Source of the DNA: a virus
Direction: 5' to 3' (one strand)
Virus record (IMG/VR): IMGVR_UViG_3300030103_000679
Coordinates: 1-32,842 of that record
Length of the DNA stretch: 32,842 nt
Shown here: in pieces, positions 5,722-32,601 of the stretch
Layout of the letters: every line of letters starts with the position of its first letter
How positions within the stretch are numbered: position 1 is the stretch's first letter
Made by a program: the position numbers and the translations under genes
The notes under the pieces: model-generated
What the model saw: the letters and a program-made list of their open reading frames with translations, nothing else
Databases searched by the model: none
Told to the model about the DNA's origin: nothing

Positions 5722-5965
5722 AGTAATTGCAGAAAAAATAATTGAAGCACCTGTATATGAATCAGGTAAACAAGTAGAAATTAAGCATACAAGAACAATG
5801 AAAGATGCTTCAGGAAAAGATGTAGAAGTAGTTGATTATACTGATGTTAAATCAGTAGATGAAGCTATATCACAATGTGAAGCACATAAAGCTAACTTAG
5901 AATCACAACTTACTGAATGTGAAGCAGAATTATCAGACTATATAGCAATAAGAGATGCTGAGTAA
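5714..5965 (+). CDS. Small acidic fibre-linked protein, function unknown
   Basis: An 83-residue hypothetical protein starting 8 bases inside the fibre gene and ending in TAATG overlap with the next gene. Residues 45-83 (DEAISQCEAHKANLESQL and onward) look helical and could form a short coiled coil. The N-terminal half has alternating charged residues consistent with strands. Position directly behind an S74 fibre gene suggests a fibre-associated or fibre-assembly protein, but nothing in the sequence proves it. Confidence 0.6.
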   Translation: MAKVIAEKIIEAPVYESGKQVEIKHTRTMKDASGKDVEVVDYTDVKSVDEAISQCEAHKANLESQLTECEAELSDYIAIRDAE

Positions 5966-6291
5966 TGGCATTACCAGTAATACCAAACCATCCAACTCAA
6001 CCATTGAAAATGAGTGATATTAGAAAAAGCTGTAATGTAGATGTATCTTCTCAGACTGGTAATTATAGTTTAAAAGGATTGTCAGTGAATAGTCCTGCTC
6101 AAACTTATAATACTACTTTTAGAACAATACTACCAAGCACATCACAAAGCACAAATATTGGAAGCTTAAGCAATTGGTTAGTAGGAACTTTTGGAGATCC
6201 AACATTTGACACTACCAATCTTCCTGAACACAGAATGTCTGAGTTTCCAGTAGGAAGAAGTGTAGAAACTGATGGACACTTACCAAGATAA
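5965..6291 (+). CDS. Hypothetical protein, likely fibre- or virion-associated
   Basis: A 108-residue protein with many Ser, Thr, Asn and Pro residues, few charges and no membrane segment. It opens MALPVIPNHPTQPLKMSDI, and a 'MSDI' start region recurs in small virion-associated proteins of marine phages (recollection, not a search). It is translationally coupled to the 83-aa gene before it by TAATG. The composition resembles a beta-rich structural protein. No function can be assigned. Confidence 0.6.
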   Translation: MALPVIPNHPTQPLKMSDIRKSCNVDVSSQTGNYSLKGLSVNSPAQTYNTTFRTILPSTSQSTNIGSLSNWLVGTFGDPTFDTTNLPEHRMSEFPVGRSVETDGHLPR

Positions 6292-6320
6292 AATTTTATT
6301 AACAAAACGAGGGCTATAAA

Positions 6321-6548
6321 ATGAGTGAAGAAAGAAAAATAACAGTAAACGATCAAGACTACAATTTTGACGAATTATCACAAGAGCAACAAATTCTTGT
6401 TGAACACATTGAGAATTGTAGAAGGCAAAAAGCTAATTTTGCATTTCAAATTGATAGAGAATCAGTTGCTGAAGGTGCATTTGCTAAAATGCTAACTGAA
6501 TCTTTTGACAAAAAAGAAGGAGATAAAGATGAATCTGATAGTGAGTAA
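6321..6548 (+). CDS. Small hypothetical protein (DUF6447-like style)
   Basis: A 75-residue acidic protein: a short strand region (KITVNDQDYNFDELSQEQQ), then a predicted helix and a charged tail ending DKDESDSE. The order 'ITVND..Y..DELS.E....V.HI' resembles small proteins near tail genes in marine phages sometimes called DUF6447, a tentative match from memory. A GAGGG ribosome site precedes ATG. Its end overlaps the next small gene, placing it in the same unit as the endolysin. Role unknown. Confidence 0.6.
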   Translation: MSEERKITVNDQDYNFDELSQEQQILVEHIENCRRQKANFAFQIDRESVAEGAFAKMLTESFDKKEGDKDESDSE

Positions 6549-6684
6549 GATCTTAACAGGTATATTGAGTGAAAAAGTGTTAATTGCTGTGCTACTTAGA
6601 GTTGGAGATTTTTTAGTAGAAAAATCATCTAATGAATTAGACAACGAAGTTTGGGCGGAAGTAAAAAAAGCTCTAAAGAAGTAG
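6529..6684 (+). CDS. Small hydrophobic-segment protein next to the endolysin
   Basis: A 51-residue protein with a textbook AAGGAGAT site before ATG 6529, overlapping the previous gene by 20 bases and ending 3 bases before the endolysin ATG. Residues 4-30 are rich in Leu, Ile and Val (ILTGILSEKVLIAVLLRVGDFLV) but contain Lys16, Arg24 and Glu15, so this is more likely an amphipathic or marginal membrane helix than a clean one. The C-terminus is basic (VKKALKK). Position and size allow a holin-like or accessory lysis role; this is inference from context only. Confidence 0.6.
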   Translation: MNLIVSKILTGILSEKVLIAVLLRVGDFLVEKSSNELDNEVWAEVKKALKK

Positions 6685-6686
6685 TG

Positions 6687-7172
6687 ATGGTGGAAAATAC
6701 AACCTTCGAATCGGTTATTAGGAAGGTAATCGAACACGAAGGTGGATATGTGAACGATCCGCACGACAAAGGTGGAGAAACTAATTTTGGTATTAGTAAA
6801 AGATGGTTTCCTGATGTAGATATTAAAAATCTTACAGAAGAAGAAGCTATAAACATTTACTATAACAATTATTGGATTCCTGCAAAAGTAGATCGCCTTC
6901 CAAATGATTTGAGGTCTACTTATTTTGATATGTGCGTGAATATGGGACAAAAACAAGCAGTCAAGGTACTGCAAAGAGCCATAAATAGCAAAAAACGTTC
7001 TAAAATAGATGTAGATGGGCGTATCGGCAAACAAACGATACAAAGTGCCGATAAAGTGAATAAGAAGCGTTTACAGGCGTATAGATGCAAATTTTACGCA
7101 GATCTTGTAAGTCAGGATAAATCGCAAGAACGATTTTACTATGGGTGGTTTCGAAGGGCTATTGATGTATGA
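6687..7172 (+). CDS. Endolysin, glycoside hydrolase 108 (N-acetylmuramidase)
   Basis: A 161-residue lysozyme. The N-terminal catalytic domain has the GH108 signature EHEGGYVNDPHDKGGETNFG (residues 16-35), with Glu18 as the expected catalytic acid. The C-terminal half has the family's peptidoglycan-binding fold: MCVNMGQKQAVKVLQRAI, VDGRIGKQTI and a final FYYGWFRRA. It cleaves the glycan backbone of peptidoglycan at host lysis. No signal peptide or SAR-type N-terminus is visible, so it needs a holin. ATG 6687 was chosen over an upstream TTG at 6651 because it follows the previous stop and matches family length. The stop overlaps the phosphoesterase start. Confidence 0.88.
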   Translation: MVENTTFESVIRKVIEHEGGYVNDPHDKGGETNFGISKRWFPDVDIKNLTEEEAINIYYNNYWIPAKVDRLPNDLRSTYFDMCVNMGQKQAVKVLQRAINSKKRSKIDVDGRIGKQTIQSADKVNKKRLQAYRCKFYADLVSQDKSQERFYYGWFRRAIDV

Positions 7173-7948
7173 AAAAGAAAATAAAGAGTACAGGTGTCAT
7201 ATTTGGTGATATGCACTTTCCTTTGCACGACGAATCAGCATTTAGTTGTGCATTAAAGGTAATTGAGAAGGTTAAGCCTGATATATTTATCAATTTAGGC
7301 GATTTTGCAGAAGGGGAATACGTATCACATTGGAGATGGAGCAGAAGAAAGCGACCGCCATTGGAATATCAACTTCCTTTAATTGATAAAGAAGCACAAG
7401 AAGTGAATATGCATATGGATCGCATTGACTATGCTTTAAAAAAAGTAGGCTGTAAGAACAAATATCTTGCAATGGGTAATCACGACAATTGGTATAATGC
7501 TTTTGTTGAGGAAAACCCTTATTTAGATAAATACAAGCCTGAAACATTATTTGATATTGAAAAGCGTGGTTATAAGTGGTTTCCTTATGGCGAGATCTTC
7601 AAAGTAGAAGATTCAAAGCTGTACGCATATCACGGAGGACATTATGGTTCAGTCAATCACAGCAGGGCGACAGTGCAGAACTTAGGCTGTAATATAATCT
7701 ATGGGCATACACACGATTGCCAACGTAGTGTTGTTCAACATATATCAGGAGTACATATTGCACAAAGCATGGGCTGTTTATGTAAGATTAAAAAGGATTT
7801 TTTAAAAGGCAGAAAAGTAAATTGGACGCACAATGTTGGGATCGTAGACTTTTTCGATGATGGGTGGTTTAATTTAATAACGTTAGACATACATAATGGT
7901 ATGACAACTTGGAACAATGAAATAATTAAAGGGGACAAATGGACTTAG
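7169..7948 (+). CDS. Calcineurin-like metallophosphoesterase
   Basis: A 259-residue protein with the full set of metallophosphoesterase motifs in order: GDMH (13-16), GD (44-45), GNHD (103-106), YHGGHYG (154-160) and GHTHD (179-183). These bind a two-metal centre that hydrolyses phosphomono- or diesters. No signal peptide or membrane segment is seen, so it acts in the host cytoplasm. It starts with an ATGA overlap of the endolysin stop and is followed by a coupled 56-aa gene. Phage enzymes of this family may act on nucleotides, RNA ends or phosphoproteins; nothing here fixes the substrate. Its place between lysis and connector genes implies late expression. Confidence 0.85.
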   Translation: MKKKIKSTGVIFGDMHFPLHDESAFSCALKVIEKVKPDIFINLGDFAEGEYVSHWRWSRRKRPPLEYQLPLIDKEAQEVNMHMDRIDYALKKVGCKNKYLAMGNHDNWYNAFVEENPYLDKYKPETLFDIEKRGYKWFPYGEIFKVEDSKLYAYHGGHYGSVNHSRATVQNLGCNIIYGHTHDCQRSVVQHISGVHIAQSMGCLCKIKKDFLKGRKVNWTHNVGIVDFFDDGWFNLITLDIHNGMTTWNNEIIKGDKWT

Positions 7949-8109
7949 CAGAATCAATTAAAAAACTAAAAGAGTTAAGCGTAATTCTTCAAGCAAAAAC
8001 AATATCAGACAGGGAAAAAGAATTTTACACACCTGAGTTGTTTAAATTGATTGATAAGTTAGAAATTCCTCAATTAATAGGAGAATTAGATAATGAGTAC
8101 GTATCTTGA
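7939..8109 (+). CDS. Small hypothetical protein (56 aa)
   Basis: A short gene that fills the gap between the phosphoesterase and the connector. ATG 7939 has an AAAGGGG site five bases upstream, overlaps the phosphoesterase by 10 bases, and the frame stays open to 8109, overlapping the next gene by 17. The product is charged and predicted helical (MDLAESIKKLKELSVILQAK at the start). No family recognised. Overlaps at both ends, good ribosome site and gap-free coverage support a real gene. Confidence 0.6.
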   Translation: MDLAESIKKLKELSVILQAKTISDREKEFYTPELFKLIDKLEIPQLIGELDNEYVS

Positions 8110-9079
8110 TACATATTGCACAATAGAAGACATACAATTGGTAGCCCCATTTGTATTCGATTATGACAGGAAAAGAACAATAACTAATTGGGTAAGTCAT
8201 AGTGGCAGTGGTAATTCCGAAATATGGAAAGCTGGTAGTGTTGGCAAATTTACAATGCTATATGAAAATGACATTGAACAAACCTTAGTAGCAGACATTG
8301 CAAGCGTAGACGCTGATGGTAAATACTACTTTGATGAGGACGCTGATGTCGTTTACTTTATGCCAACAACAAATAGCGACCCAAACTTTGATGTAACTAT
8401 GACAGCTGGCAGGGATAATAAAACTCTATTTGAGGAGTTTATATCAAGAAGTTCCGACTTCGTGAGATCTTATATTAATAAACCTATTTATAAAAATAAG
8501 GGCGTCGGGACAGGGGATAGTTTAGGTAGAAATTACCCTGAAATAATTGTAAGGGCTACCGCATTGTTGTCAGCTGCTATGGCAGTATTACCATATGATG
8601 AACAACATGGACTACGATTACAAAATCAAGTATACGACCAAGAAGGCGGAACAGGGTTATTAGACTTGATTCGCAAAGGGATTATAAGCTTAGATCAAGA
8701 TGAAGATGGCAGAGATAAAATAGTTAAAGAAGTTTCTATTAATGGTAATACAACAGGTGCTATTGTAGACACTTTTGGAAACCCTCAAACATCATTTGAC
8801 AGAATTAAAGTTGTTATAGAAACAGGCGGAACGTTCGCAGCAGGAAGCACGTCTACTGTGACTTATAAAACTTTTATAGGTAATGATTCAGGGCTCAAAG
8901 TGAACGCTTCGCAGGAAGCAGAAGTAATTGATGGCAGTTTTCAACCAGTAGGACATGGAGTTTATGTAAGATTTTCTACTGGCGTTTATACTGCAAGCGA
9001 CGAATGGGAAGTTGAAGTGTCAGGATTAGATCACACAAGCGGTGGTGGGATTGAAACTATACAATTGAAGAGGAGATAA
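8093..9079 (+). CDS. Probable head-tail connector / adaptor protein
   Basis: A 328-residue protein. Residues about 110-205 form a helical region (LFEEFISRSSDFVRSYINKP, then YPEIIVRATALLSAAMAVL) in the style of gp6-like head-tail connector proteins, which form the ring under the portal. The N-terminal 100 and C-terminal 120 residues look beta-rich and could be decoration or ring-ring interface domains. An AGGAGA site lies ahead of ATG 8093. Position before the tail-completion and tail-tube genes agrees with a connector. The family name is inferred from order and helical pattern; another virion protein is possible. Confidence 0.5.
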   Translation: MSTYLDTYCTIEDIQLVAPFVFDYDRKRTITNWVSHSGSGNSEIWKAGSVGKFTMLYENDIEQTLVADIASVDADGKYYFDEDADVVYFMPTTNSDPNFDVTMTAGRDNKTLFEEFISRSSDFVRSYINKPIYKNKGVGTGDSLGRNYPEIIVRATALLSAAMAVLPYDEQHGLRLQNQVYDQEGGTGLLDLIRKGIISLDQDEDGRDKIVKEVSINGNTTGAIVDTFGNPQTSFDRIKVVIETGGTFAAGSTSTVTYKTFIGNDSGLKVNASQEAEVIDGSFQPVGHGVYVRFSTGVYTASDEWEVEVSGLDHTSGGGIETIQLKRR

Positions 9080-9081
9080 TT

Positions 9082-9264
9082 ATGCCTAAAAAAAAGGGAT
9101 TGTATGCTAATATACACGCTAAAAGAAAAAGAATTAAAAGACAAAAAGCAACAGGGGCTAAAAAAGTAGAGAGAATGAGAAGTAAAAAAAGCCCACATGC
9201 ACCAAGTAGTGCTAATTTTAGATCCGCTGCAAAAACAGCAAAAAAACGTAAAAGGAGAAAATAA
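9082..9264 (+). CDS. Small highly basic protein (MPKKKGLYAN type)
   Basis: A 60-residue protein with more than a third Lys and Arg. The start MPKKKGLYANIHAKRKRIK is a recurrent opening of small proteins in marine phages of several types (recollection). The charge suggests binding of DNA or RNA, perhaps packaged DNA near the portal or capsid interior, but no experimental role is known to me. It starts 2 bases after the connector stop, with GAAGAGGAG before ATG, and ends in TAATG overlap with the next tiny gene. Confidence 0.7.
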   Translation: MPKKKGLYANIHAKRKRIKRQKATGAKKVERMRSKKSPHAPSSANFRSAAKTAKKRKRRK

Positions 9265-9326
9265 TGCCAAGAGGAATAGGGTATGGTAAAAAGAAAAGAA
9301 AAATGAAAAAGAAAAAGAAGAAATAA
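9264..9326 (+). CDS. Lysine-rich micropeptide (20 aa)
   Basis: ATG 9264 overlaps the previous stop in TAATG and the frame ends at 9326, again in TAATG with the next start. An AAAAGGAGAA site lies just upstream. The peptide opens MPRGIGYGKKKRK and ends in six lysines; 12 of 20 residues are Lys or Arg. Similar MPRGxGYGKKK micropeptides exist in other marine phages from memory. The linked start and stop at both ends and the ribosome site argue for translation despite its size. It may serve as a DNA-condensing or internal virion peptide (inference). Confidence 0.55.
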   Translation: MPRGIGYGKKKRKMKKKKKK

Positions 9327-9505
9327 TGGCTAAGAACTTGAAAGGTGTTAGCTTAAAAGGATTAACTGCTACGCAAAAAAGACAGATGAGCAAACATAAA
9401 GTACATCACACAAAAGCCCATTTAAGAAGTATGGCTTCTGCTATTAGAAAAGGTAAAACTTTTAAACAAGCACATACGATAGCTATGAGAAAAATAGGTA
9501 AGTAA
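9326..9505 (+). CDS. Small basic His/Lys-rich protein (59 aa)
   Basis: A 59-residue basic protein coupled by TAATG to the micropeptide before it and followed without gap by ATG 9506. The core LTATQKRQMSKHKVHHTKAH then FKQAHTIAMRKIGK matches a small protein type I recall near capsid genes of marine phages, with a His-rich helix and a conserved C-terminal 'F..AH..A.kk.Gk'. The His cluster (24, 27, 28, 32) could bind metal or nucleic acid. Function unknown. Confidence 0.65.
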   Translation: MAKNLKGVSLKGLTATQKRQMSKHKVHHTKAHLRSMASAIRKGKTFKQAHTIAMRKIGK

Positions 9506-9778
9506 ATGGCAATAACATATAGAGGGGTACGCTTTTCAGGTTATAATAAACCAAAAAGAACACCAAAACATAGAACTAAATCACACGCTGTTTTAGCTAA
9601 ACAGGGGAACAAAATAAGACTAATAAGGTTTGGTCAGCAGGGTGTTAGAGGAGCAGGTAAAAAACCAAGAACTGCGTCAGAAAGAGCAAGAAAAAGATCT
9701 TTTAAAGCAAGACATAGAAAAAATATTGCAAGAGGTAAAATGAGTGCAGCTTATTGGGCAAATAAGGTAAAGTGGTAA
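9506..9778 (+). CDS. Basic virion-region protein ending YWANKVKW
   Basis: A 90-residue basic protein. The motifs GYNKPKRTP, LIRFGQQGV, SFKARHRKNI and the C-terminal GKMSAAYWANKVKW are characteristic of a conserved protein in marine podo- and siphoviruses (from memory, DUF5872-like). The family is usually found near head or connector genes and is thought to be virion-linked, but its role is not established. It is the last of four consecutive very basic genes, and the tail-completion gene starts 2 bases after its stop. Confidence 0.7.
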   Translation: MAITYRGVRFSGYNKPKRTPKHRTKSHAVLAKQGNKIRLIRFGQQGVRGAGKKPRTASERARKRSFKARHRKNIARGKMSAAYWANKVKW

Positions 9779-9779
9779 T

Positions 9780-10217
9780 ATGGCAAGATTAGAATTTGAA
9801 AACATCTTTAAAGAAAGAGTATTAGATAATATACAAAAACTAATTAAACAAACAATTCCAAGCATTCCTTTGTTCTACGATGAACATAAAGGACAGGAGA
9901 GTTTTTTAATTAGACCTGTATCTGATACTTTTATAGATTATGCAAGTAATGCACACATCAGGCAGTATGTAACTGAAATAAGCTTTGAGATACACACAGG
10001 ATCTGAATTTACAAAAGATAAAGATGTAAAAAGATTAACAGATATAGCAGAACTTGTTAAAAGAATTTTTTTCGATAACAGAAATCTTGAATTATTAAAC
10101 ATCACAGAGTGGTATAATGCCAAAGTAACTGATGTTGTATATGAAAGAGATACAGAAGATACACAGCGAGAAAGATTTGTACTAACGTTAGAATGTAATG
10201 TAAACGAGGTAATATAA
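9780..10217 (+). CDS. Probable tail-completion / terminator protein
   Basis: A 145-residue protein placed between connector genes and the tail-tube gene, the standard place for a tail terminator or neck protein. It has an N-terminal helix (FENIFKERVLDNIQKLIKQ), a strand-rich middle (FEIHTG at about 69) and a C-terminal strand (RFVLTLECNV). This alpha/beta layout and size agree with tail-completion proteins of siphoviruses, which cap the tail tube and join it to the head. No hallmark motif exists for this family, so the call rests on order, size and layout. Confidence 0.5.
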   Translation: MARLEFENIFKERVLDNIQKLIKQTIPSIPLFYDEHKGQESFLIRPVSDTFIDYASNAHIRQYVTEISFEIHTGSEFTKDKDVKRLTDIAELVKRIFFDNRNLELLNITEWYNAKVTDVVYERDTEDTQRERFVLTLECNVNEVI

Positions 10218-23916: not shown

Positions 23917-24153
23917 ATGGATATTGATAAACTACTTAAACAAATAGATCAAGAAACTGCTAATGCGGAAGTAGGACACGAAGCATTTAACAGGACTAAG
24001 AATATGCGAAGATTTAGTCAAGGCAGTATAGAAAATATTGTTCTTGCTGATCCAAATGGCGACGAAGAACACACACCCCCTGACGATTGGGACGCACATT
24101 CAACATTTGATGAGGAAAATTACAGCATAGAGTATGATGATGAAGATTATTGA
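23917..24153 (+). CDS. Acidic hypothetical protein, first gene of the modification unit
   Basis: A 78-residue protein, very acidic at its end (DEENYSIEYDDEDY). Residues 1-20 form a short helix and the middle is probably disordered with Pro and Gly. ATG 23917 has no ribosome site; ATG 24004, with AGGA eight bases ahead, is an alternative giving 49 residues. Its stop overlaps the ParB-like gene by 20 bases. Acid-rich phage proteins sometimes mimic DNA or bind DNA enzymes; here this is only a guess. Confidence 0.5.
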   Translation: MDIDKLLKQIDQETANAEVGHEAFNRTKNMRRFSQGSIENIVLADPNGDEEHTPPDDWDAHSTFDEENYSIEYDDEDY

Positions 24154-24733
24154 AAAAAACATTAGAGATCTTAAACAAGCAGATTACAACCCAAGACAAT
24201 TAACAGAAAAACAACATAAAGAATTAACAGACTCTTTAGAAAAGTTTGGTTTTGTTGATCCTGTGCTTGTGAATAAAAATAAAGCAAGAAAAAACATTAT
24301 TATTGGCGGACACCAAAGAGTGAAAGTTGCTACAATGTTAGGCATTGAAAAAGTACCCTGCGTAGAATTAGATCTTAACGAAGAACAAGAAAAAGAATTA
24401 AATGTCAGATTAAACAAGAACACAGGAGAGTGGGATTGGGATATGTTGGCAAACAATTTTGATACAGGCGAATTACTTGATTGGGGCTTTGTTGAACAAG
24501 AGTTAGGAGTAGACAGTGAAAGTTTGACTTTTGATGTTACAAATAATTACAATGAAACAATCGAATACCCTGAAGACGCAGAAGCAAGTCACGTACGTAT
24601 GATCCAATTATTCTTAAACGACGAAACTGAACCAGTGTTTAAGAAAATGGAATTAGAATTAAGAGAAAAGTTTGGCACAGACAACGTTACAGACACTGTG
24701 TTTAAAGCTTTGGAGTTTTTGATTAATGGCTAG
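24134..24733 (+). CDS. ParB/Srx-domain protein of the modification cluster
   Basis: A 199-residue protein with a ParB N-terminal (ParB/sulfiredoxin) domain: ADYNPRQLTEKQHKELTDSL at 16-35, then VDPVLVN and IIIGGHQRVKVATMLG at 55-70, the GGHQR being the nucleotide-binding signature. NVRLNKNTGEWDWDMLA (90-106) is the continuation seen in phage ParB-like proteins tied to DNA methylases. There is no methylase domain. In phage modification loci such proteins recur beside base-modifying enzymes and may recognise DNA, bind CTP or act as nucleases. Three successive ATGs (24134, 24137, 24140) are possible. It overlaps the dioxygenase gene by 8 bases. Confidence 0.78.
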   Translation: MMMKIIEKNIRDLKQADYNPRQLTEKQHKELTDSLEKFGFVDPVLVNKNKARKNIIIGGHQRVKVATMLGIEKVPCVELDLNEEQEKELNVRLNKNTGEWDWDMLANNFDTGELLDWGFVEQELGVDSESLTFDVTNNYNETIEYPEDAEASHVRMIQLFLNDETEPVFKKMELELREKFGTDNVTDTVFKALEFLING

Positions 24734-25607
24734 AGAAATTTATTTAGATCCTGTGTTAGATGATAAGTCAGCTGCTAAATTAGCTGGTGCATTGTTAGAC
24801 GACACAAGTTATAAGATTTTAGTAGATTATGACGCAGACGTATATGATAAAGAATCAGGCAAAGTATTAGCAAAATTTAGGAAAAATGTAATACCTGCTA
24901 ATATTGCTCAAACTGCTTATGAAAATTTAAAGGGTGCAGCGACAGCAACAAATAACAGGAACAAAGCATCAGGAACAGCTGGTAGTAAAAGATTAAAAAA
25001 AGATGGATCTGTTTCAAATACAAATGGTGCAGATCAAGTTAATAGCGGAATTATAGGATATTTTGATAGAAATGTAAGATTTCCTTATTGCAGACAAACC
25101 GCTTTTAATCAAAAAGAATTTGAGAAATTTAAAAAAGCGTATGGTATTATTAAGTTTGTAGACAATCAATATAGCGATCTTATGCCAGACGAATATCAAT
25201 TGCAACGAAAAGTAGCAGACGAAACTGCACAAGATTTTGTTATTAAAGATACTGCATTTACCACAGTCACAGTAAATAAAAATTGGCAAACAGCAGTGCA
25301 TACAGATAAAGGTGATTTTGAAAAGGGCTTTGGCAATCTTGTAGTGTTACGTGAAGGAAGATACGAAGGCGGTTATTTTGTTATTCCACAATGGGCAGTA
25401 GCATTTGATATGCAAAATTGCGATTTATTATTATGTGACGTTCATCAATGGCATGGAAACACGCCAATTACAAAGATTGACGAAAAAGCTACAAGAGTTT
25501 CTTTAGTAATGTATTATAGACAAAATATGACACACTGCGGAACAGCAACAGAAGAACAAGAAATAGCAAAACAACGTGAAATAAGATCAGGGGCAAGTAT
25601 ATATTGA
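24726..25607 (+). CDS. TET/JBP-type 2OG-Fe(II) DNA dioxygenase
   Basis: A 293-residue protein with the TET/JBP core. HTD at 192-194 gives the first two iron ligands (His192, Asp194) in TAVHTDKGDFEKGFGNLVVL; GGYFVIPQWAVAFDMQNCDL follows; DVHQWHGNTPI holds the third ligand (His240 or His243), and Arg257 in ATRVSLVMYY is the expected 2-oxoglutarate ligand. Enzymes of this family oxidise the 5-methyl of thymine or 5-methylcytosine in DNA to hydroxymethyl. The N-terminal PYCRQTAFN region (120-128) is also shared. No cytosine-5 methyltransferase or hydroxymethyl-dUMP synthase is visible, favouring thymine as substrate. Its TGA overlaps the amidotransferase ATG (TGATG). Confidence 0.8.
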   Translation: MAREIYLDPVLDDKSAAKLAGALLDDTSYKILVDYDADVYDKESGKVLAKFRKNVIPANIAQTAYENLKGAATATNNRNKASGTAGSKRLKKDGSVSNTNGADQVNSGIIGYFDRNVRFPYCRQTAFNQKEFEKFKKAYGIIKFVDNQYSDLMPDEYQLQRKVADETAQDFVIKDTAFTTVTVNKNWQTAVHTDKGDFEKGFGNLVVLREGRYEGGYFVIPQWAVAFDMQNCDLLLCDVHQWHGNTPITKIDEKATRVSLVMYYRQNMTHCGTATEEQEIAKQREIRSGASIY

Positions 25608-26221
25608 TGTGCGGAATTGTAGGATATAGTTCACAAGATCCAAAACCAAATCACTTTGCAATACTTCATAACTTAATTATTGAAAGTTCAGTACGTGGGC
25701 TACATAGTTATGGTTACAGCTTTGTTAAAGACGATAAACTTATAACAAGAAAATATCACGAATTAGACGACATTTCTTTTCCTGTGTCAGATAAAATCAT
25801 TTACCACAACAGGTATTCTACGTCAGGTGATTATAAAAATCATAAAAACAATCAGCCAATACATATAGACGATATGGCATTAGTGTTTAATGGTGTTATT
25901 GATATGAGAACAAAACACCAAATGGAAAAAGCACATAATATCACTATGGAAACTGATAATGATGGCGAAATACTAATTCAACGATGTGGAAACGATAAAG
26001 AATTAATAACAAGATTTGTAAATGACATTAAAGGAAGTTTTGCTGGTATTGTTTTAGATTCCGAGAATAAAATGTTTGTTATACGTAACAAGAAGCGACC
26101 TTGCTGGATATTTGAATATGAAAATGCAACTTTTATAGCTTCAACAAGAGATATTTTTAAAAGAGTAGACGATACTTTTGAGCCAACGCCTATTAAAGCT
26201 GGTGTGTTATATGAATTATAA
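25607..26221 (+). CDS. Stand-alone class II glutamine amidotransferase
   Basis: A 204-residue protein beginning MCGIVGY, so Cys2 becomes the N-terminal nucleophile after Met removal. ATG 25607 is chosen over an upstream TTG for that reason. Other GATase-II marks follow: VRGLHSYG (29-36), HNRYSTSG (67-74), FNGVIDM (94-100) and DGE (119-121). These domains hydrolyse glutamine and channel ammonia to a partner. No synthetase or isomerase domain is present, so the ammonia (or glutamine-derived nitrogen) acceptor must be another protein, most likely an enzyme of this cluster. It is coupled to TET/JBP (TGATG) and overlaps the GNAT gene by 11 bases. Confidence 0.82.
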   Translation: MCGIVGYSSQDPKPNHFAILHNLIIESSVRGLHSYGYSFVKDDKLITRKYHELDDISFPVSDKIIYHNRYSTSGDYKNHKNNQPIHIDDMALVFNGVIDMRTKHQMEKAHNITMETDNDGEILIQRCGNDKELITRFVNDIKGSFAGIVLDSENKMFVIRNKKRPCWIFEYENATFIASTRDIFKRVDDTFEPTPIKAGVLYEL

Positions 26222-26618
26222 ATTAGAAAGAGCTATGCGTAAAGACGCAGATCTTATTAAAGCTATACACAAACAAGACAAAGAACACATAGGATCGTTT
26301 AATTTATTTCAGGTGTGGGATAAGTATTTAACAGAAAACACGACTTATAAATTTTTAGTATGTGAAGAAAAAGGGTTTGTCAGGTATGGCTGGTCTAAAA
26401 AATATAGTTCTTGGGTAATATACGAGATCGGCGTATTAGATGAATTTAAAAAACAGGGCGTAGCGAAGTTTATTGTGGAAAACTTACCAAAACCTATGAC
26501 TTTAAAATGCAATCTTGATAATGAAGCTGGAAATAAATTTTATGAAAAGATTGGTATGACAAAAGTAGGTAAAGCACAAACAAAGAAGGGTATTCCACAA
26601 AATATTTGGCAATGGTAG
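26211..26618 (+). CDS. GNAT-family acyltransferase
   Basis: A 135-residue protein with a GNAT fold: strand VIYEIGVLDEFKKQGVAKFI (69-88) with the acyl-CoA loop KKQGVAK (80-86), and CNLDNEAGNKFYEKIGM (100-116) with the usual asparagine and the YEK..GM end. ATG 26211, overlapping the previous gene by 11 bases, is chosen; a later ATG at 26235 is possible. These enzymes move an acyl group, usually acetyl, to an amine. In phage DNA modification loci GNATs are thought to acylate an amino group on the altered base. It overlaps the next gene by 7 bases. Confidence 0.78.
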   Translation: MNYKLERAMRKDADLIKAIHKQDKEHIGSFNLFQVWDKYLTENTTYKFLVCEEKGFVRYGWSKKYSSWVIYEIGVLDEFKKQGVAKFIVENLPKPMTLKCNLDNEAGNKFYEKIGMTKVGKAQTKKGIPQNIWQW

Positions 26619-27487
26619 ATGAATTTATTGATTATCACGTTCAATCATCTAAAGCAAAAGACATTGATCCAGCCAATGATTGTTTGAGATATGTAAGTGA
26701 TAGATTTGAATTAAATATTGAACAACGTTATTGGTTAGCTTTTTTATATGCTTGTTGTTATTCAGGAACGACTGTGTATTATATTTACAATGAATTTCCT
26801 GACTTTGAAAACGTAGACGAAGGCAGATTACAACGCTGGTGGGACGCTAATAAACAAAAGACTGTGTTCCAAACAGACAGATTGAAGGTAAAATCTTTTA
26901 ATGAGTTTGTTAATATCTTCAAATCATACAAACAGCTGCTCAATGGCTTAACGCAAGAAGAATATTTTAATTCCCTGAAACAGCCGAATAGACAGATGAC
27001 TTATGACAATTGTTATCAGGATCTGATGAAAATACATTACTTTGGCAGGTTTACTATGTTTATTTACTTAGAAATGGTAAATGTTTTAACAGGGTTTGAT
27101 TTAGAGCCAACGTATTTAGACTTAAAGAATGCTGAAAGTTGTAGAAATGGTTTAGTGTATAGTTTAGAGCAATACGAATTAGATACACATGGAACAAAAA
27201 AGAAGTTAAATAAAAACCAACTTGGCTATTTACAATATCAATTTGAACTAATGAAAGAAGAAATAGAACAGCTTGATATACAGCATACAAACATTTGGAA
27301 CATTGAAACAACGCTGTGTGCTTACAAAAAGTATAAACGTGGCAAACGTTATGTTGGATATTATATAGATCGTCAGCGTAAAGAAATAGAAAAAATGCAA
27401 GATCTTGTTATAGATGGTGTCAATTGGCAAGTATTATGGGATTTTAGAAACGAAACGTATGAGAAAAAATGGTTAAACGAGTTGTAG
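26612..27487 (+). CDS. Amino acid:DNA transferase / aGPT-PPlase-like protein
   Basis: A 291-residue helical protein with the hallmarks I associate with the alpha-glutamyl/putrescinyl-thymine pyrophosphorylase and amino acid:DNA transferase clade: DPANDCLRYVSDRFELNIEQ (19-38), then RYWLAFLYACCYSG, YNEFPDFENVD (59-69), RWW (75-77), FQTDR (86-90), HYFGRFTMF (142-150) and AESCRNGL (174-181). Known or proposed members displace the phosphate group of activated 5-hydroxymethyluracil in DNA with an amino acid or amine. ATG 26612 is preferred to an upstream TTG. The kinase gene overlaps its end by 19 bases, fitting the two as consecutive steps. Family recalled, not searched. Confidence 0.65.
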   Translation: MVDEFIDYHVQSSKAKDIDPANDCLRYVSDRFELNIEQRYWLAFLYACCYSGTTVYYIYNEFPDFENVDEGRLQRWWDANKQKTVFQTDRLKVKSFNEFVNIFKSYKQLLNGLTQEEYFNSLKQPNRQMTYDNCYQDLMKIHYFGRFTMFIYLEMVNVLTGFDLEPTYLDLKNAESCRNGLVYSLEQYELDTHGTKKKLNKNQLGYLQYQFELMKEEIEQLDIQHTNIWNIETTLCAYKKYKRGKRYVGYYIDRQRKEIEKMQDLVIDGVNWQVLWDFRNETYEKKWLNEL

Positions 27488-28002
27488 CAATAGGCGGTGT
27501 TCCTTGTTCAGGAAAAACAACATTAGTAAGAGAAATACTAAACAATGTAGAAGATGAGCCTAAGTTCTTTAAATATGGGCTGTTAAGGGGCTATATCTCA
27601 GACAACGTAGCAATTTTAGGTATTTATAAGCCTGAAGATACTTTTGGCGGTACAGACAAGTTGTCTATGGCAGTTCAAAAAGATTATGAAAAGTTTTTAA
27701 AGATAACTGACTATAATGTTCTCTTTGAAGGCGACAGGCTGTTTACAGAAAAGAATTTATTACATATACACGAGAACTATGAGCAGAAGTTTATTGTTTT
27801 AGATCTTGATGAAGAAACGCTGGAACAACGACACGTAGACAGAAATGATACGCAGTCAGATCAGTTTAAGAAGTCAAGGCACACTAAAATACAAAATATA
27901 TTAAACAACACACGTTTACAACCTGATTTGGAAGTAATTCAAATAAGGGATAAACAGAAAGCAGGAATAATTGCTAAGAAAGTAATAAAGTTCCTGTTTT
28001 AA
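27469..28002 (+). CDS. P-loop kinase, likely 5-hydroxymethyl-pyrimidine DNA kinase
   Basis: A 177-residue kinase. Walker A is GVPCSGKTT (10-18), VLFEGDR (84-90) is the Walker B-like strand, and RHVDRNDTQ (121-129) looks like the arginine-bearing lid. GGTDKLSMAVQ (60-70) resembles the substrate-side segment of phage kinases linked to base hypermodification. Those enzymes phosphorylate the hydroxymethyl of 5hmU in DNA, making it a leaving group. Its position directly after the transferase-like gene fits that role. Other small-molecule or nucleotide kinases cannot be excluded from sequence alone. It ends 17 bases before the terminase-region gene. Confidence 0.7.
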   Translation: MVKRVVAIGGVPCSGKTTLVREILNNVEDEPKFFKYGLLRGYISDNVAILGIYKPEDTFGGTDKLSMAVQKDYEKFLKITDYNVLFEGDRLFTEKNLLHIHENYEQKFIVLDLDEETLEQRHVDRNDTQSDQFKKSRHTKIQNILNNTRLQPDLEVIQIRDKQKAGIIAKKVIKFLF

Positions 28003-28019: not shown

Positions 28020-28310
28020 ATGGCAAAATTTACAAAGGGCAAATCAGGAAACCCAAAGGGACGCCCAAAAGGCACAACAACTATCAATGGAATATTAAAG
28101 AAGATAGGATCAGAACAGCTACCTGAAGCAGATATAGATAAATTAGAATTTATTATGCGTAAAGTATTTGAATTTGCAGTGAAGGGCGAAAGCTGGGCAG
28201 TACACTTCATAGCAGATCGTTTAGAAGGTAAGCCAAAACAGACAATTGGGTTACACGAAGTTAATGACGAGCCAATAAAGGTATTTGACATTAATGAAGT
28301 GGAGGATTGA
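28020..28310 (+). CDS. Small terminase-like protein (DUF5681 start)
   Basis: A 96-residue protein opening FTKGKSGNPKGRPKG (4-18), the DUF5681 signature 'F.kGqSGNP.GRPkG' often found in small terminase-type or packaging-related proteins directly before the large terminase. A helical middle follows (KLEFIMRKVFEFAVKGESWA). It likely binds phage DNA for packaging initiation. It overlaps the large terminase by 17 bases. The ribosome site is AACAGG close to ATG, or an earlier AGGG. Confidence 0.72.
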   Translation: MAKFTKGKSGNPKGRPKGTTTINGILKKIGSEQLPEADIDKLEFIMRKVFEFAVKGESWAVHFIADRLEGKPKQTIGLHEVNDEPIKVFDINEVED

Positions 28311-29487
28311 CGACACAAGAAGGTCTATTCTTTTTGATGAATCAAGATACAAAATTTTGGTTTGTGGTAGAAGATGGGGCAAAACTTTCTTTTCATTAAT
28401 TTGGTTAATGAACGAAGAATTGAAGCCGAACGAGAGAAGGTGGATAATATACCCAAGTTATCGTCAGGCGAAAATGGTAGCTTGGAACTTGTTAAAGCGT
28501 GTATTCAGCGGTAAAGACGTTAAGATCAATGAATCAGAATTATCTGTAACACTTAATAATGGGGCTAAAATAGAACTCAAAGGAGCAGATAAAGAAGATA
28601 ACATACGTGGTGTTAGTTTGCATAAAGTAGTATTAGACGAATATGCTTATATGAAACCAAATGTATGGGGAGAGATCGTTCAACCTATGTTAGCTGAAAC
28701 AAAGGGACAGGCTTTATTTGTAGGGACGCCAACAGGTATACAAAATCATTTTTATGATATGTATGTGAAGGGACAATTAGACAATTCAGACTATAAATCT
28801 TGGCAGTTTACTACTATTGAAGGTGGGTTTATTTCGCCTGACGAAATAGAAAGTGCAAAAAAGAATTTAGACGCAAGCACATTCAGACAGGAATATGAAG
28901 CAAGTTTTGAAACCGCTTCTAACAGATGTGCTTACAATTTCAACAGGGATATACACGTGAAAGAAATGGAAAAAAGTGCACGTATGTTCTGGGGGATTGA
29001 CTTTGGTGTATCAAGTTATATGACAGCTATTCTAATGTGTGAAAATACAGCGGGGGAAGTTTATGTGTTTGACGAGATCGGATTACAAAACTCTAACACG
29101 TTTGAATTAGCAAGACTTATGCAACAAAAAGCAAAGGGGCTTCCTGTTTACCCTGATCCAGCAGGGAAAGCAAGAACAAGCAATAGCACAAAGTCAGATC
29201 ATAGGATATTGCAGGACGCAGGATTCACAGTGATTAGTAAAAAAGCAAACCCTACGCAGAAAGATAGATTAAACGCATTGAACAGAATGCTGGAAGATGC
29301 AACAGGCAAACACAAGTTGTTTATTAACCCTAAGTGTAAGAACACAATTAGAGATTTAGAATTAACAACATTAGAAAATGGGCACATATTAAAGACAGAA
29401 ACGTTATCACACTTTCTTGACGGAGTTATGTACCCTATTGAATACAGGTATGGATTTAAAGGTCAGGCAAACACAATAGAATGGTAA
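28294..29487 (+). CDS. terL: Terminase large subunit
   Basis: A 397-residue packaging motor and nuclease. ATPase domain: GRRWGKT (25-31, Walker A), VVLDE (112-116, Walker B) and VGTPTG (143-148, coupling motif). Nuclease domain: Asp236 in FWGIDFG, Asp288 in YPDPAG, and Asp376 in FLDGV, the RNase H-like acidic triad. It cuts concatemers and pumps DNA into the prohead. ATG 28294 is preferred to an in-frame TTG at 28285. Complete motifs and a usual length for compact marine phage terminases argue for a functional enzyme. Confidence 0.92.
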   Translation: MKWRIDDTRRSILFDESRYKILVCGRRWGKTFFSLIWLMNEELKPNERRWIIYPSYRQAKMVAWNLLKRVFSGKDVKINESELSVTLNNGAKIELKGADKEDNIRGVSLHKVVLDEYAYMKPNVWGEIVQPMLAETKGQALFVGTPTGIQNHFYDMYVKGQLDNSDYKSWQFTTIEGGFISPDEIESAKKNLDASTFRQEYEASFETASNRCAYNFNRDIHVKEMEKSARMFWGIDFGVSSYMTAILMCENTAGEVYVFDEIGLQNSNTFELARLMQQKAKGLPVYPDPAGKARTSNSTKSDHRILQDAGFTVISKKANPTQKDRLNALNRMLEDATGKHKLFINPKCKNTIRDLELTTLENGHILKTETLSHFLDGVMYPIEYRYGFKGQANTIEW

Positions 29488-29501
29488 AATAAAGGATTAA
29501 A

Positions 29502-30833
29502 ATGATAATTACAAATTTGACAGAGAAGATGTTGTATGACTTATTAATGGATACGATTGAAGAAGGATATGACAAGCAAATGGAAGAAAGAGAACGTCTG
29601 CTTGATTATTATGAAGGGGTAAACCTACAACAAGATCTTAAGCAGTATTTTGACAGTGAATCTCTTTCACAAATACCGCCTATGTATATTAACTTGGTAA
29701 GAAATATTATTTCAAGACGTGCATTGGTATATCAACAAAGCCCTGTAAGATATAACGACAAATACAATGAAGTATTAGGCAACTTTGATAGTTTTATGAA
29801 ACAATTTGAGCAGCTTACTTACCTATTAGGTACAGAAGCTTTGTATACACACTGGGACGACGAAAACAAAGAATTAAAATATAGACCTATACACTTTTTT
29901 GTCCCCTTCTTCAAGCCAAACGAGGACGAGCCATTTGCAATTATGTATCAGGCTGAGAGTCAGTTAATGGCGAGATCAGAAGACGCACAGTATATGTTTT
30001 GGAGTAAAGAAACTGATGATATGGAAGGTAAACACTTTATGATCAGTTCACGTGGGAAGGTTACTTCTGTTGTCCCTGATGACAGAAACCCTTATGGCGA
30101 TATTATTCCATTTAACATAGCACACCGACACCCATACACTAGGGACTTTTTTAGAGAAGGGGCAAATGATTTAGTTGATGGTATGCGATCTATCAACATT
30201 ATGCTAACAGAATTGGCTTTGCATGGAAGATTCCAATTGGGACAGCCTTTATTTACTGGATTAGATACTGAACAACGTATCACAATGGGGCAAGATAAAG
30301 CGATAGTGCTTCCTGAAGGGGCTAACTTTTCTTATGCAAGCCCAAGTGCCGATATTAATGGTATGATTGAATCTACGAAGTATATGGTGGACTCTATTGC
30401 TCAAGCAAACAATGTTAGAATTAATTGGACTGACAAAGCACAAGAATCAGGACTATCTAAAAAAATGAGTGAATTAGATCTTATGGACTCTTTACGATCT
30501 GACACCGAACAGATTTATAGACCATTTGAAAAGCAACAATTTGAAATTGCTAAACGTATTTGTGAAGTATCAGGCGGAATTAATTTAGGCGATCAATTCA
30601 GTATTGATTTTTCTGAGAGAGAAGTGCCAATGTCGCAACAAGAGGAAATACAATATTATACGTGGGCTTTTGACAACGATCTTGAAACAAGACAGTCATA
30701 CCTAAGAAAGAAAAACCCTGATTTACAAGAAGAAGAAATACAGCAGATAGTAGAACAGCTTGACTCAGAAGTGCCAAGCAAAGAAAACGAAACTCAATCA
30801 ATTATTGATAAAATAGGCGAGAGAGTTGGTTAA
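29502..30833 (+). CDS. Portal protein
   Basis: A 443-residue protein between the terminase and minor head genes. It contains the portal-style stretch PPMYINLVRNIISRRALVYQ (59-78), a later RHPYTRDFF, and the helix SIAQANNVRINWT with 'SGLSKKMSELDL' (about 322-333) as in SPP1-type portals. It forms the twelve-part ring at the capsid vertex through which DNA enters and leaves, and to which connector proteins bind. An acidic, disordered C-terminus follows. AAAGG lies ahead of ATG. Its end overlaps the minor head start. Confidence 0.85.
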   Translation: MIITNLTEKMLYDLLMDTIEEGYDKQMEERERLLDYYEGVNLQQDLKQYFDSESLSQIPPMYINLVRNIISRRALVYQQSPVRYNDKYNEVLGNFDSFMKQFEQLTYLLGTEALYTHWDDENKELKYRPIHFFVPFFKPNEDEPFAIMYQAESQLMARSEDAQYMFWSKETDDMEGKHFMISSRGKVTSVVPDDRNPYGDIIPFNIAHRHPYTRDFFREGANDLVDGMRSINIMLTELALHGRFQLGQPLFTGLDTEQRITMGQDKAIVLPEGANFSYASPSADINGMIESTKYMVDSIAQANNVRINWTDKAQESGLSKKMSELDLMDSLRSDTEQIYRPFEKQQFEIAKRICEVSGGINLGDQFSIDFSEREVPMSQQEEIQYYTWAFDNDLETRQSYLRKKNPDLQEEEIQQIVEQLDSEVPSKENETQSIIDKIGERVG

Positions 30834-31584
30834 TTTAGACTTTTACAATAAAGAAATAGCCAATATACAACAAGAATTACTAAACAAATTAGATAATGTT
30901 GTAGCAGGGCTTTCTACGCTTACTGACACAGAATTACTGCAAGTAGCACAACAAATAGACTTTTATTCAGAAATGGAAAAAATAGGATACGCTGGGCTAC
31001 TGAGTAAAGTAAGCAGTACGTATGATGATGAAATAGCCATTATATATGCTGAACTTTCTAATAGACAATTAGCAAAGATCTCTGCGTCAAACGTAGAAGT
31101 GTTAAGACAACTGAAAGAGTTTGAATTATCTTTTTTAAGTGATGGGGTTAAACAATACTCTAATCAAGTTAAAGTTGCAATGTTGCGTGGGTTAATCACA
31201 GGACAAAGCACAGCACAAATTATGGAATCACTCACAGCTACGTATGGTGTAGGAAATTTCATTAGCAGTTCTCAGTCTGCTTTTTTAATAGAAGACTCTT
31301 TTTCAAGATTTTCGCAGTCTGTTACAGGTAAAGTATATGAGGATTTTCCTGAAACGAAATTCCAATATGAGGGACCTGTTGATGGAAAAACAAGACAGGT
31401 TTGCAGAAGAGCATTAGCTTCTACAGGACAGGGGCTTACAAGAAAAGAAATAGACAAGTTAGGTTATGTCAATTTTACTGACAGGGGCGGTTATAATTGT
31501 AGACACAGATGGGTAAAAGCAATAGTCAAGTTTACCCCTGAACAATTACAAGCGAGAAAAGGATTATACCAAGATGAAGATTAG
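30826..31584 (+). CDS. Minor head protein (Mu F-like / head morphogenesis)
   Basis: A 252-residue protein with an N-terminal helical half and the C-terminal minor-head signature: YEGPVDGKTRQVCRRAL (181-197) and GYNCRHRW (222-229). Cys193, Cys225 and His227 may bind zinc or an in-built structural metal. These proteins are a few copies inside the capsid near the portal. TTG 30826 is the likely start: no ATG lies nearby, it overlaps the portal stop, and GGCGAGAG is upstream. It overlaps the next gene by 11 bases. Confidence 0.82.
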   Translation: MVNLDFYNKEIANIQQELLNKLDNVVAGLSTLTDTELLQVAQQIDFYSEMEKIGYAGLLSKVSSTYDDEIAIIYAELSNRQLAKISASNVEVLRQLKEFELSFLSDGVKQYSNQVKVAMLRGLITGQSTAQIMESLTATYGVGNFISSSQSAFLIEDSFSRFSQSVTGKVYEDFPETKFQYEGPVDGKTRQVCRRALASTGQGLTRKEIDKLGYVNFTDRGGYNCRHRWVKAIVKFTPEQLQARKGLYQDED

Positions 31585-32050
31585 AAACATAGTCAAAGGA
31601 AGTGCACAGCAAATGAAGCTTGTCGCACAAGACGCTATTTCTTTAATACAAGTAGATGCTATGCGTAATGGTATGTTCCAAAACAATAGAAGCGGATTTG
31701 GCTATTCAGATCAATACAAGAAGTATAAAAGCAATAGTATGCGTGGTGTCAAGACAGGGCAAAAGCTTAAATCATATAAAAGCAACAAAGCCCCTGACAC
31801 GACTACTACTTTTGTGAATATGCGATTATCAGGAACTACATTTGATAATATGATGGCTAAGGGCAAAACCAATCAGGGCATTATAACCTTTACTAAAAAT
31901 GGTAATGTAGTATTGTGGAACAAAGATCGTGGCTATGATATTTTTGATTTAAGAGATAAAAACAGAGAATTAGTTGCGGAAGAATACGCAAAAAGAATTT
32001 TGGATAGAAACATTAAAAAGTATGTATCCAAAACTATAACAATAAAATAG
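31574..32050 (+). CDS. Virion assembly protein candidate
   Basis: A 158-residue basic protein with an N-terminal helix (AQQMKLVAQDAISLIQVDAM) and a strand-rich middle, NMRLSGTTFDNMMAKGK (82-98), then NVVLWNKDRGY. This resembles small head-tail joining or virion morphogenesis proteins, but no signature is decisive. Its place between the minor head protein and the scaffold supports a head role. It overlaps the previous gene and its stop is 8 bases before the scaffold start. Confidence 0.5.
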   Translation: MKIRNIVKGSAQQMKLVAQDAISLIQVDAMRNGMFQNNRSGFGYSDQYKKYKSNSMRGVKTGQKLKSYKSNKAPDTTTTFVNMRLSGTTFDNMMAKGKTNQGIITFTKNGNVVLWNKDRGYDIFDLRDKNRELVAEEYAKRILDRNIKKYVSKTITIK

Positions 32051-32058
32051 GAGGACAG

Positions 32059-32601
32059 ATGTCCGAAGAAACTAAAATAGTAGAAGAACAAGCAGTAGCA
32101 GAAACTCCTACACAGGAAACAGAAGTAAATGAAGAACGTGGATCACTAATTGCAGAAAGCAAGAAGTATCGCACTAGGGCTCAAACAGCAGAAGCCAAGT
32201 TGAAAGATCTTGAGGAAAATTTAAAACTACAAGAACAAAAACAACTCGAAGAAAAAGAGGAATTTAAAACTCTTTACGAAACTTCTCAAAAAGAACTCAG
32301 TCAGTTGAAACCAATTGTTGAGCAATTTGAAATACAAGAGAAGCAAAGACGTGAACATCTGCTGTCCCAACTTTCTGATGACGAACAAGAAATATACCAA
32401 GATCTACCAACAATTAAGTTGGAAAAGCACGTAGAAAGAATGGGAAATAAAAAAGTGCAAATATCTGACGCCAAAGAAGTCACTTCAAGTGGCAAATTTG
32501 CTGAAAATACGAAATGGGGAGATTTATCAGACGCAGATCGTGAAAAAGCAAAGAAAAATCCAAAACTTTGGAAGCAGATTGTAGATGGGTATAGAAATTA
32601 A
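32059..32601 (+). CDS. Scaffold protein
   Basis: A 180-residue, very acidic and then charged coiled-coil protein: disordered N-terminus (VAETPTQETEVNEERG), long helix from about residue 30 to 100 (SKKYRTRAQTAEAKLKDLEE and on), and a helical basic C-terminal end (REKAKKNPKLWKQIVDG). This composition, and location directly before the capsid gene, are those of a phage scaffolding protein that templates procapsid assembly and leaves before packaging. GGAGG precedes ATG. Confidence 0.82.
   Translation: MSEETKIVEEQAVAETPTQETEVNEERGSLIAESKKYRTRAQTAEAKLKDLEENLKLQEQKQLEEKEEFKTLYETSQKELSQLKPIVEQFEIQEKQRREHLLSQLSDDEQEIYQDLPTIKLEKHVERMGNKKVQISDAKEVTSSGKFAENTKWGDLSDADREKAKKNPKLWKQIVDGYRN

Follow-up and report, generated by a model that had tools for sequence, protein, structure and literature searches.

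The cassette and its stand-alone glutaminase domain

The window, i.e., the whole stretch of DNA that was analysed, is a virus record of 32,842 bases. It carries, on one strand and with overlapping ends, a cassette in the order ParB, TET/JBP, GATase-II (class II glutamine amidotransferase), GNAT, ADDT (amino acid:DNA transferase), and P-loop kinase (Table 1), with terminase genes after the kinase. The start of the GATase gene overlaps the stop codon of TET/JBP (TGATG) and its end overlaps the start of GNAT by 11 bp, as the initial annotation had described. The product of the gene starting at 26612, left unidentified in that annotation, is an ADDT (PF18724). The right end of the window (28020-32601) holds terminase, portal-like, and scaffold-like genes and a capsid gene lies at the far left (1-759), an arrangement suggesting that the window is a circularly permuted, near-complete phage genome.

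Table 1. Genes of the cassette in the window, and GATase-ADDT pairs on two bacterial MAG contigs
Gene or contig	Position	Strand	Length (aa)	Basis of assignment
ParB N-terminal-domain protein (first cassette gene)	24134..24733	+	199	Pfam ParB_N, E 2e-9
TET/JBP dioxygenase	24726..25607	+	293	Pfam Tet_JBP, E 4e-26
GATase-II, stand-alone glutaminase domain	25607..26221	+	204	Pfam GATase_7 and GATase_6, fold, invariant residues
GNAT acyltransferase	26211..26618	+	135	Pfam Acetyltransf_10, E 7e-7
ADDT (aGPT-PPlase superfamily), 'long' class	26612..27487	+	291	Pfam ADDT PF18724, E 8e-20
P-loop kinase	27469..28002	+	177	Walker A GGVPCSGKTT; weak Ploopntkinase3 match
L196, Prevotella MAG contig: GATase, then ADDT-like gene				ADDT assigned by sequence motifs
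L197, WOR-3 MAG contig: GATase, then ADDT-like gene				ADDT assigned by Pfam

The GATase ORF opens with an ATG at 25607 and its product begins with MCGIVGY, Cys2 sitting right after the initiator Met. It passes the curated cut-offs of two Pfam profiles, GATase_7 (E 2e-10) and GATase_6 (E 4e-9). In the AlphaFold model, built from 39 relatives (mean pLDDT 94), the entire chain adopts the glutaminase fold, and the top Foldseek matches of this model are the glutaminase domains of PurF and GlmS (E about 1e-11, TM 0.70-0.77). Cys1, Arg73, Asn98/Gly99, and Asp123 of GlmS correspond to C2, R69, N95/G96, and D119, which are unchanged in 39/39 aligned relatives at identities down to 32%. By equivalence with GlmS, Cys2 is the nucleophile, Arg69 and Asp119 are the glutamine-binding residues, and Asn95-Gly96 is the oxyanion pair; given the invariance of these residues, the protein is very probably active as an enzyme. 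The MCGIVGY start, the Cys2 nucleophile, and the glutaminase motifs pointed out in the initial annotation are borne out, as is its statement that a synthase domain is lacking: no second (synthase) domain is present in the chain, and the scores against the NCBIfam profiles for GlmS, PurF, and AsnB fall far below the curated cut-offs. Where GlmS has an RGxDS motif, the GATase has RGxHS, and this His33 (window positions 25703-25705) is the same in 39/39 relatives.

Regarding the neighbouring genes, the TET/JBP protein keeps an invariant metal site, composed of an HxD motif (H192, D194) and H243, together with a likewise invariant R257, and is predicted to hydroxylate the methyl group of thymine in DNA. 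The P-loop kinase is a predicted 5-hmdU DNA kinase, and the kinase of the WOR-3 cassette gives a weak match (E 0.003) to the profile of these enzymes, PF18748. For GNAT, acylation of the amine is predicted. The AlphaFold model of the ADDT (pLDDT 96) aligns over 254 residues with the 5-phosphomethyl-dU glycinyltransferase gp46 of Pseudomonas phage PaMx11 (8z2m) at a VIA-align Z of 19.2, the next, unrelated structural match lying far lower (Z 9.7).

Census of cassettes and exchange of modules

Viral contigs were scanned separately by GATase, ADDT, and TET, then by short ADDT, and the census was made non-redundant by removing ADDTs more than 95% identical. Two classes of ADDT are distinguished, the 'long' ones of about 290 aa and the 'short' ones of about 240 aa, the latter being M6/PaMx11-like (M6 by tblastn; PDB 25qc and 8z2m by profile). 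Both share the core D17, D19-P20, Y50, G145, E232-T233, and C236. Lys occupies position 237 of the glycine-type enzymes, whereas every GATase-linked one has Ala there and two Ackermannviridae sequences have Trp. Judged from sequence, the Lys-to-Ala change appears compatible with a changed nucleophile; it was rejected as proof of a new one, since the Ackermannviridae enzymes also do without Lys.

On the non-redundant viral contigs, a GATase lies near all long ADDTs (51/51) and near none of the short ones (0/16). The flavin-lyase gene is absent from the 51 long-ADDT cassettes, and downstream of 10 of the 16 short ADDTs lies a relative of the flavin-dependent lyase of PaMx11 (8z2o; E 2e-4), which is also related to ORF10 of Abidjanvirus Ab18. 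ParB is found in nearly all cassettes, and both ParB and the kinase are equally frequent in GATase-free ones. The initial annotation had paired the GATase with TET/JBP and GNAT, a pairing that does not hold: TET is common to cassettes with and without GATase, and GNAT occurs in 39/51 long-ADDT cassettes and in 0/16 short-ADDT ones. The constant partner is the ADDT, which lies directly downstream in 51 of the 52 GATase-anchored viral loci, the remaining contig ending 172 bp past the GATase. The bacterial genome collection yielded two true GATase relatives, each overlapping the start of an ADDT-like gene (L196 and L197, Table 1); a third match was rejected as a relative, being a genuine PurF, and serves as an outgroup.

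The downstream ADDT supports the proposal, made in the initial annotation, that the GATase acts in DNA-base modification rather than in small-molecule metabolism. A conserved association with a small-molecule synthase, which that annotation had named as the contrary case, was looked for and is found neither in the 52 viral loci nor with the two relatives from the bacterial genome collection, only the ADDT being constant. We consider it highly probable that this GATase is dedicated to DNA hypermodification of the ADDT-based kind.

Switches between cassette types were counted on a tree built from 61 TET proteins. GATase-type and flavin-type cassettes are interleaved on this tree, with at least six module switches on well-supported branches and 10 on the best tree. 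Nearly the same TET is accompanied by opposite modules in L034 and L157, which are sisters, and in L030 and L135, which are neighbours; next to TET genes that hardly differ, one module stands in for the other. In 6/6 independent contrasts with support (10 on the best tree), a change of ADDT class comes with a change in GATase. After controlling for the other genes, the partial rank correlation of GATase distances is 0.33-0.47 with those of the ADDT and 0.02-0.15 with those of the adjacent TET, the pairs being non-independent in both cases, so that these values serve as supporting evidence. Joint switching and distance correlations thus tie the GATase to the ADDT and not to TET, ParB, or the kinase.

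Several cassettes show additional features. L188 was considered as a long-ADDT exception and was left out of the 51, since its divergent second ADDT does not belong to the long class by sequence; its region 1787-5675 holds two ADDTs (241 and 330 aa), between which lie a PLP-like gene, recognized by eye, and an unknown gene, and the cassette has neither GATase nor flavin lyase. The TET-less cassette of L103 comprises GATase (5355-6005), ADDT (5992-6939), GNAT (6794-7486), and kinase (7483-8040), and the gene that follows at 8074-10176 encodes 700 aa, with a weak match to radical SAM and the TET-associated glycosyltransferase domain PF20691 (E 4e-18). No dUMP hydroxymethylase is found in the TET-less cassettes L103, L096, and L098, these contigs being fragments. 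In L197, the GATase-ADDT pair precedes a gene at 8529-9911 whose 460-aa product ends in a low-molecular-weight phosphatase domain; a radical SAM/SPASM gene comes next, and L051 contains a phosphatase-like gene within the cassette. Two tandem ParB genes lie upstream of TET in L045, L046, L048, L091, L093, and L094.

Proposed role of the GATase in base modification

Thymine is the probable target of the cassette, as suggested by closely related TETs whose modules resemble the 5-hmdU pathway of PaMx11. No C5-cytosine methylase is found in the window, which suggests thymine rather than 5-methylcytosine as the TET/JBP substrate; with such a methylase missing from 10 of the 11 searched records, cytosine is disfavoured as the target base. 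A thymidylate-synthase-like enzyme was not found in the window either.

In the reading preferred here, to which we assign a probability of about 0.57, the GATase is the ammonia-supplying glutaminase subunit of the long ADDT, and the base is aminated directly to 5-aminomethyl-dU. TET/JBP would turn thymines of the phage DNA into 5-hydroxymethyl-dU, whose hydroxymethyl the P-loop kinase would phosphorylate, and the ADDT would bind 5-phosphomethyl-dU in DNA, where ammonia would displace the phosphate to give 5-aminomethyl-dU. While other ADDTs use an amino acid, the ammonia would here come from a docked GATase that splits glutamine at Cys2. GNAT, where present, would acylate the amine, and ParB probably provides DNA or site binding. 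Of this scheme, the complete glutaminase active site, the family and fold of the ADDT, its constant pairing with the GATase, and the exchange with the glycinyltransferase-lyase module are observed; a physical complex of GATase and ADDT, ammonia as the nucleophile of the long ADDT, thymine as the base, and an acylated amine as the end product are inferred. The order hydroxymethyl, phosphate, amine, and acyl-amine, already put forward in the initial annotation, agrees with a known pathway. As a general statement, that a two-protein GATase-II/ADDT system uses glutamine-derived ammonia to aminate duplex DNA at phosphate-activated thymines, and is exchanged as a module between phages, seems to us evenly balanced.

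Direct amination is favoured by the obligatory pairing of GATase and long ADDT and by the nearest solved relatives of the GATase, the ammonia-channelling PurF, GlmS, and AsnB. It is also the simplest reading, as the GATase module takes the place of the glycine-plus-lyase module, usually with an acyltransferase as in Ab18. Since the short ADDTs are M6/PaMx11-like and most of them are accompanied by a lyase homologue, both modules would plausibly converge on an aminomethyl base. Counted against direct amination are the absence of any GATase-ADDT fusion from the loci of the census and the lack of GNAT in 12/51 cassettes. Moreover, use of an amino acid by the long ADDT is still conceivable, since its closest named relatives, the ADDTs of Ackermannviridae, are presumably amino-acid users and have no GATase.

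Known stand-alone GATase-II proteins, e.g., EgtC, are gamma-glutamyl hydrolases and not amidotransferases, which also speaks against direct amination, as EgtC with its substrate is a structural match to the GATase model (TM 0.70, rank 50). By analogy, the long ADDT could attach glutamine or a gamma-glutamyl amine, and the GATase could hydrolyse the gamma-glutamyl amide on DNA to leave the aminomethyl group. It would then do, as an Ntn hydrolase, what the flavin lyase does when it trims glycine in systems of the PaMx11 type. The genomic pattern agrees with such a role almost as closely as with direct amination, the GATase standing in for the trimming enzyme in otherwise similar cassettes, and the gamma-glutamyl-binding residues R69 and D119 are kept. 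However, it requires an ADDT that couples the amide nitrogen of glutamine, and a profile search at E 0.01 finds PurF, GlmS, and AsnB but not EgtC; we consider it unlikely.

More doubtful still is an ADDT that attaches an amino acid whose carboxylate is then amidated by the GATase (e.g., glycinamide-type), the product being a carboxamide on DNA. To our knowledge, all characterised ADDTs use amino acids, and such chemistry is performed by the GATase-II domains of AsnB, a family match of the GATase. Nevertheless, amidation of a carboxylate requires ATP activation and a synthetase, whereas no ligase is present in the window cassette or conserved in others, and the ParB and kinase genes are just as present in GATase-free cassettes.

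It is very improbable that the GATase acts off DNA to produce a small precursor, either an amine or an amino acid, which the ADDT would then install. A precedent of sorts exists in PaP3-like phages, where a distant GATase-II (about 29% identity) lies among amidoligase genes, but within the present family the ADDT alone is conserved alongside, with no small-molecule synthase. In PaP3 (NC_004466; orf42-orf48, L010:5436-11188), the GATase-II domain is part of a 517-aa protein whose neighbours are annotated as amidoligases and gamma-glutamyl cyclotransferase. This PaP3/LUZ24-like protein was set aside as a family member: orf45 belongs to another, fused family and to a different phage system. Least credible is a catalytically dead or structural fold that stabilises the ADDT or binds DNA, for which the RGxHS motif with its invariant His33 could be cited, since the catalytic and glutamine-binding residues are retained throughout the 39 relatives.

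DNA hypermodification helps such viruses to evade host restriction enzymes. In known hypermodified thymidines, the nitrogen comes from whole amino acids that are trimmed later. If direct amination by GATase and ADDT is correct, phages would have a second way to solve this chemical problem, one that reaches 5-aminomethyl-dU by a shorter path than glycine transfer plus flavin lyase. Such amination would extend glutamine amidotransferases from metabolite acceptors to genomic DNA and would offer a new enzymatic handle to place a primary amine on DNA. The census yields both the exact pair, GATase with long ADDT, and matched controls, namely the sister cassettes with short ADDT and flavin lyase. The initial annotation had called the chemistry unusual, which would hold for the proposed nitrogen donor but not for the product class, amine-bearing phage thymidines being already known. 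The open literature searched contains no mention of a GATase that provides the nitrogen of a DNA base; the publications on the pathway and Iyer et al. (2013) lie outside this search, so that an earlier mention is possible.

Comparison with known systems

The glutaminase domains of PurF, GlmS, and AsnB share with the GATase the fold, the Cys nucleophile, and the glutamine-binding residues. Unlike the GATase, they share a chain with a synthase, whose substrate is PRPP, fructose-6-P, or aspartate; the window protein is a lone domain, partnered by a DNA transferase from a separate gene. The long ADDT is closest, among named relatives, to the ADDTs of Ackermannviridae (ViI/Cba120-type; about 30% identity by tblastn). 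In these phages, however, no neighbour is annotated as GATase, TET, or ParB, and none of them appears among the GATase matches.

Cassettes of ParB, TET-like, transferase, and kinase genes in actinophages have been described as nucleotide or thymidine hypermodification systems (PMC9302106, PMC11955845). Those of Tonitrus (PMC11955845) and CaiB (PMC9302106) resemble the window cassette in their overlapping ParB, TET-like, ADDT-superfamily, and 5-hmU kinase genes, first in the genome, and the cassette of CaiB also precedes the terminase. The accounts of both phages differ in naming no GATase-II and in calling the transferase aGPT-Pplase2 or pyrophosphorylase (PMC11955845, PMC9302106).

5-Aminomethyluracil is listed among the natural phage bases (PMC11550810). 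As far as titles describe it, the PaMx11 route leads from 5-phosphomethyl-dU through glycine transfer and a flavin lyase to 5-aminomethyl-dU (Wen et al., 2024, cited in PMC11946847), and the structures are, by title, those of the glycinyltransferase gp46 (PDB 8z2m/8z2n) and the flavin-dependent lyase (8z2o). The window cassette shares with PaMx11 and Abidjanvirus an ADDT fold acting on activated 5-phosphomethyl-dU and, with Ab18, a GNAT gene, ORF10 of Ab18, the flavin-lyase relative, sitting between ADDT and GNAT. The aminomethyl product is likely the same as in PaMx11, a homologue of whose lyase is carried by sibling marine cassettes. In contrast, PaMx11-type phages have a 'thymidylate synthase' gene (probable dUMP hydroxymethylase) where the window has TET, and glycine with a flavin lyase where the window has the GATase. 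While the cassette, the ADDT, and aminomethyl-dU are already known, the GATase cassette is a new form of the thymidine-hypermodification pathway.
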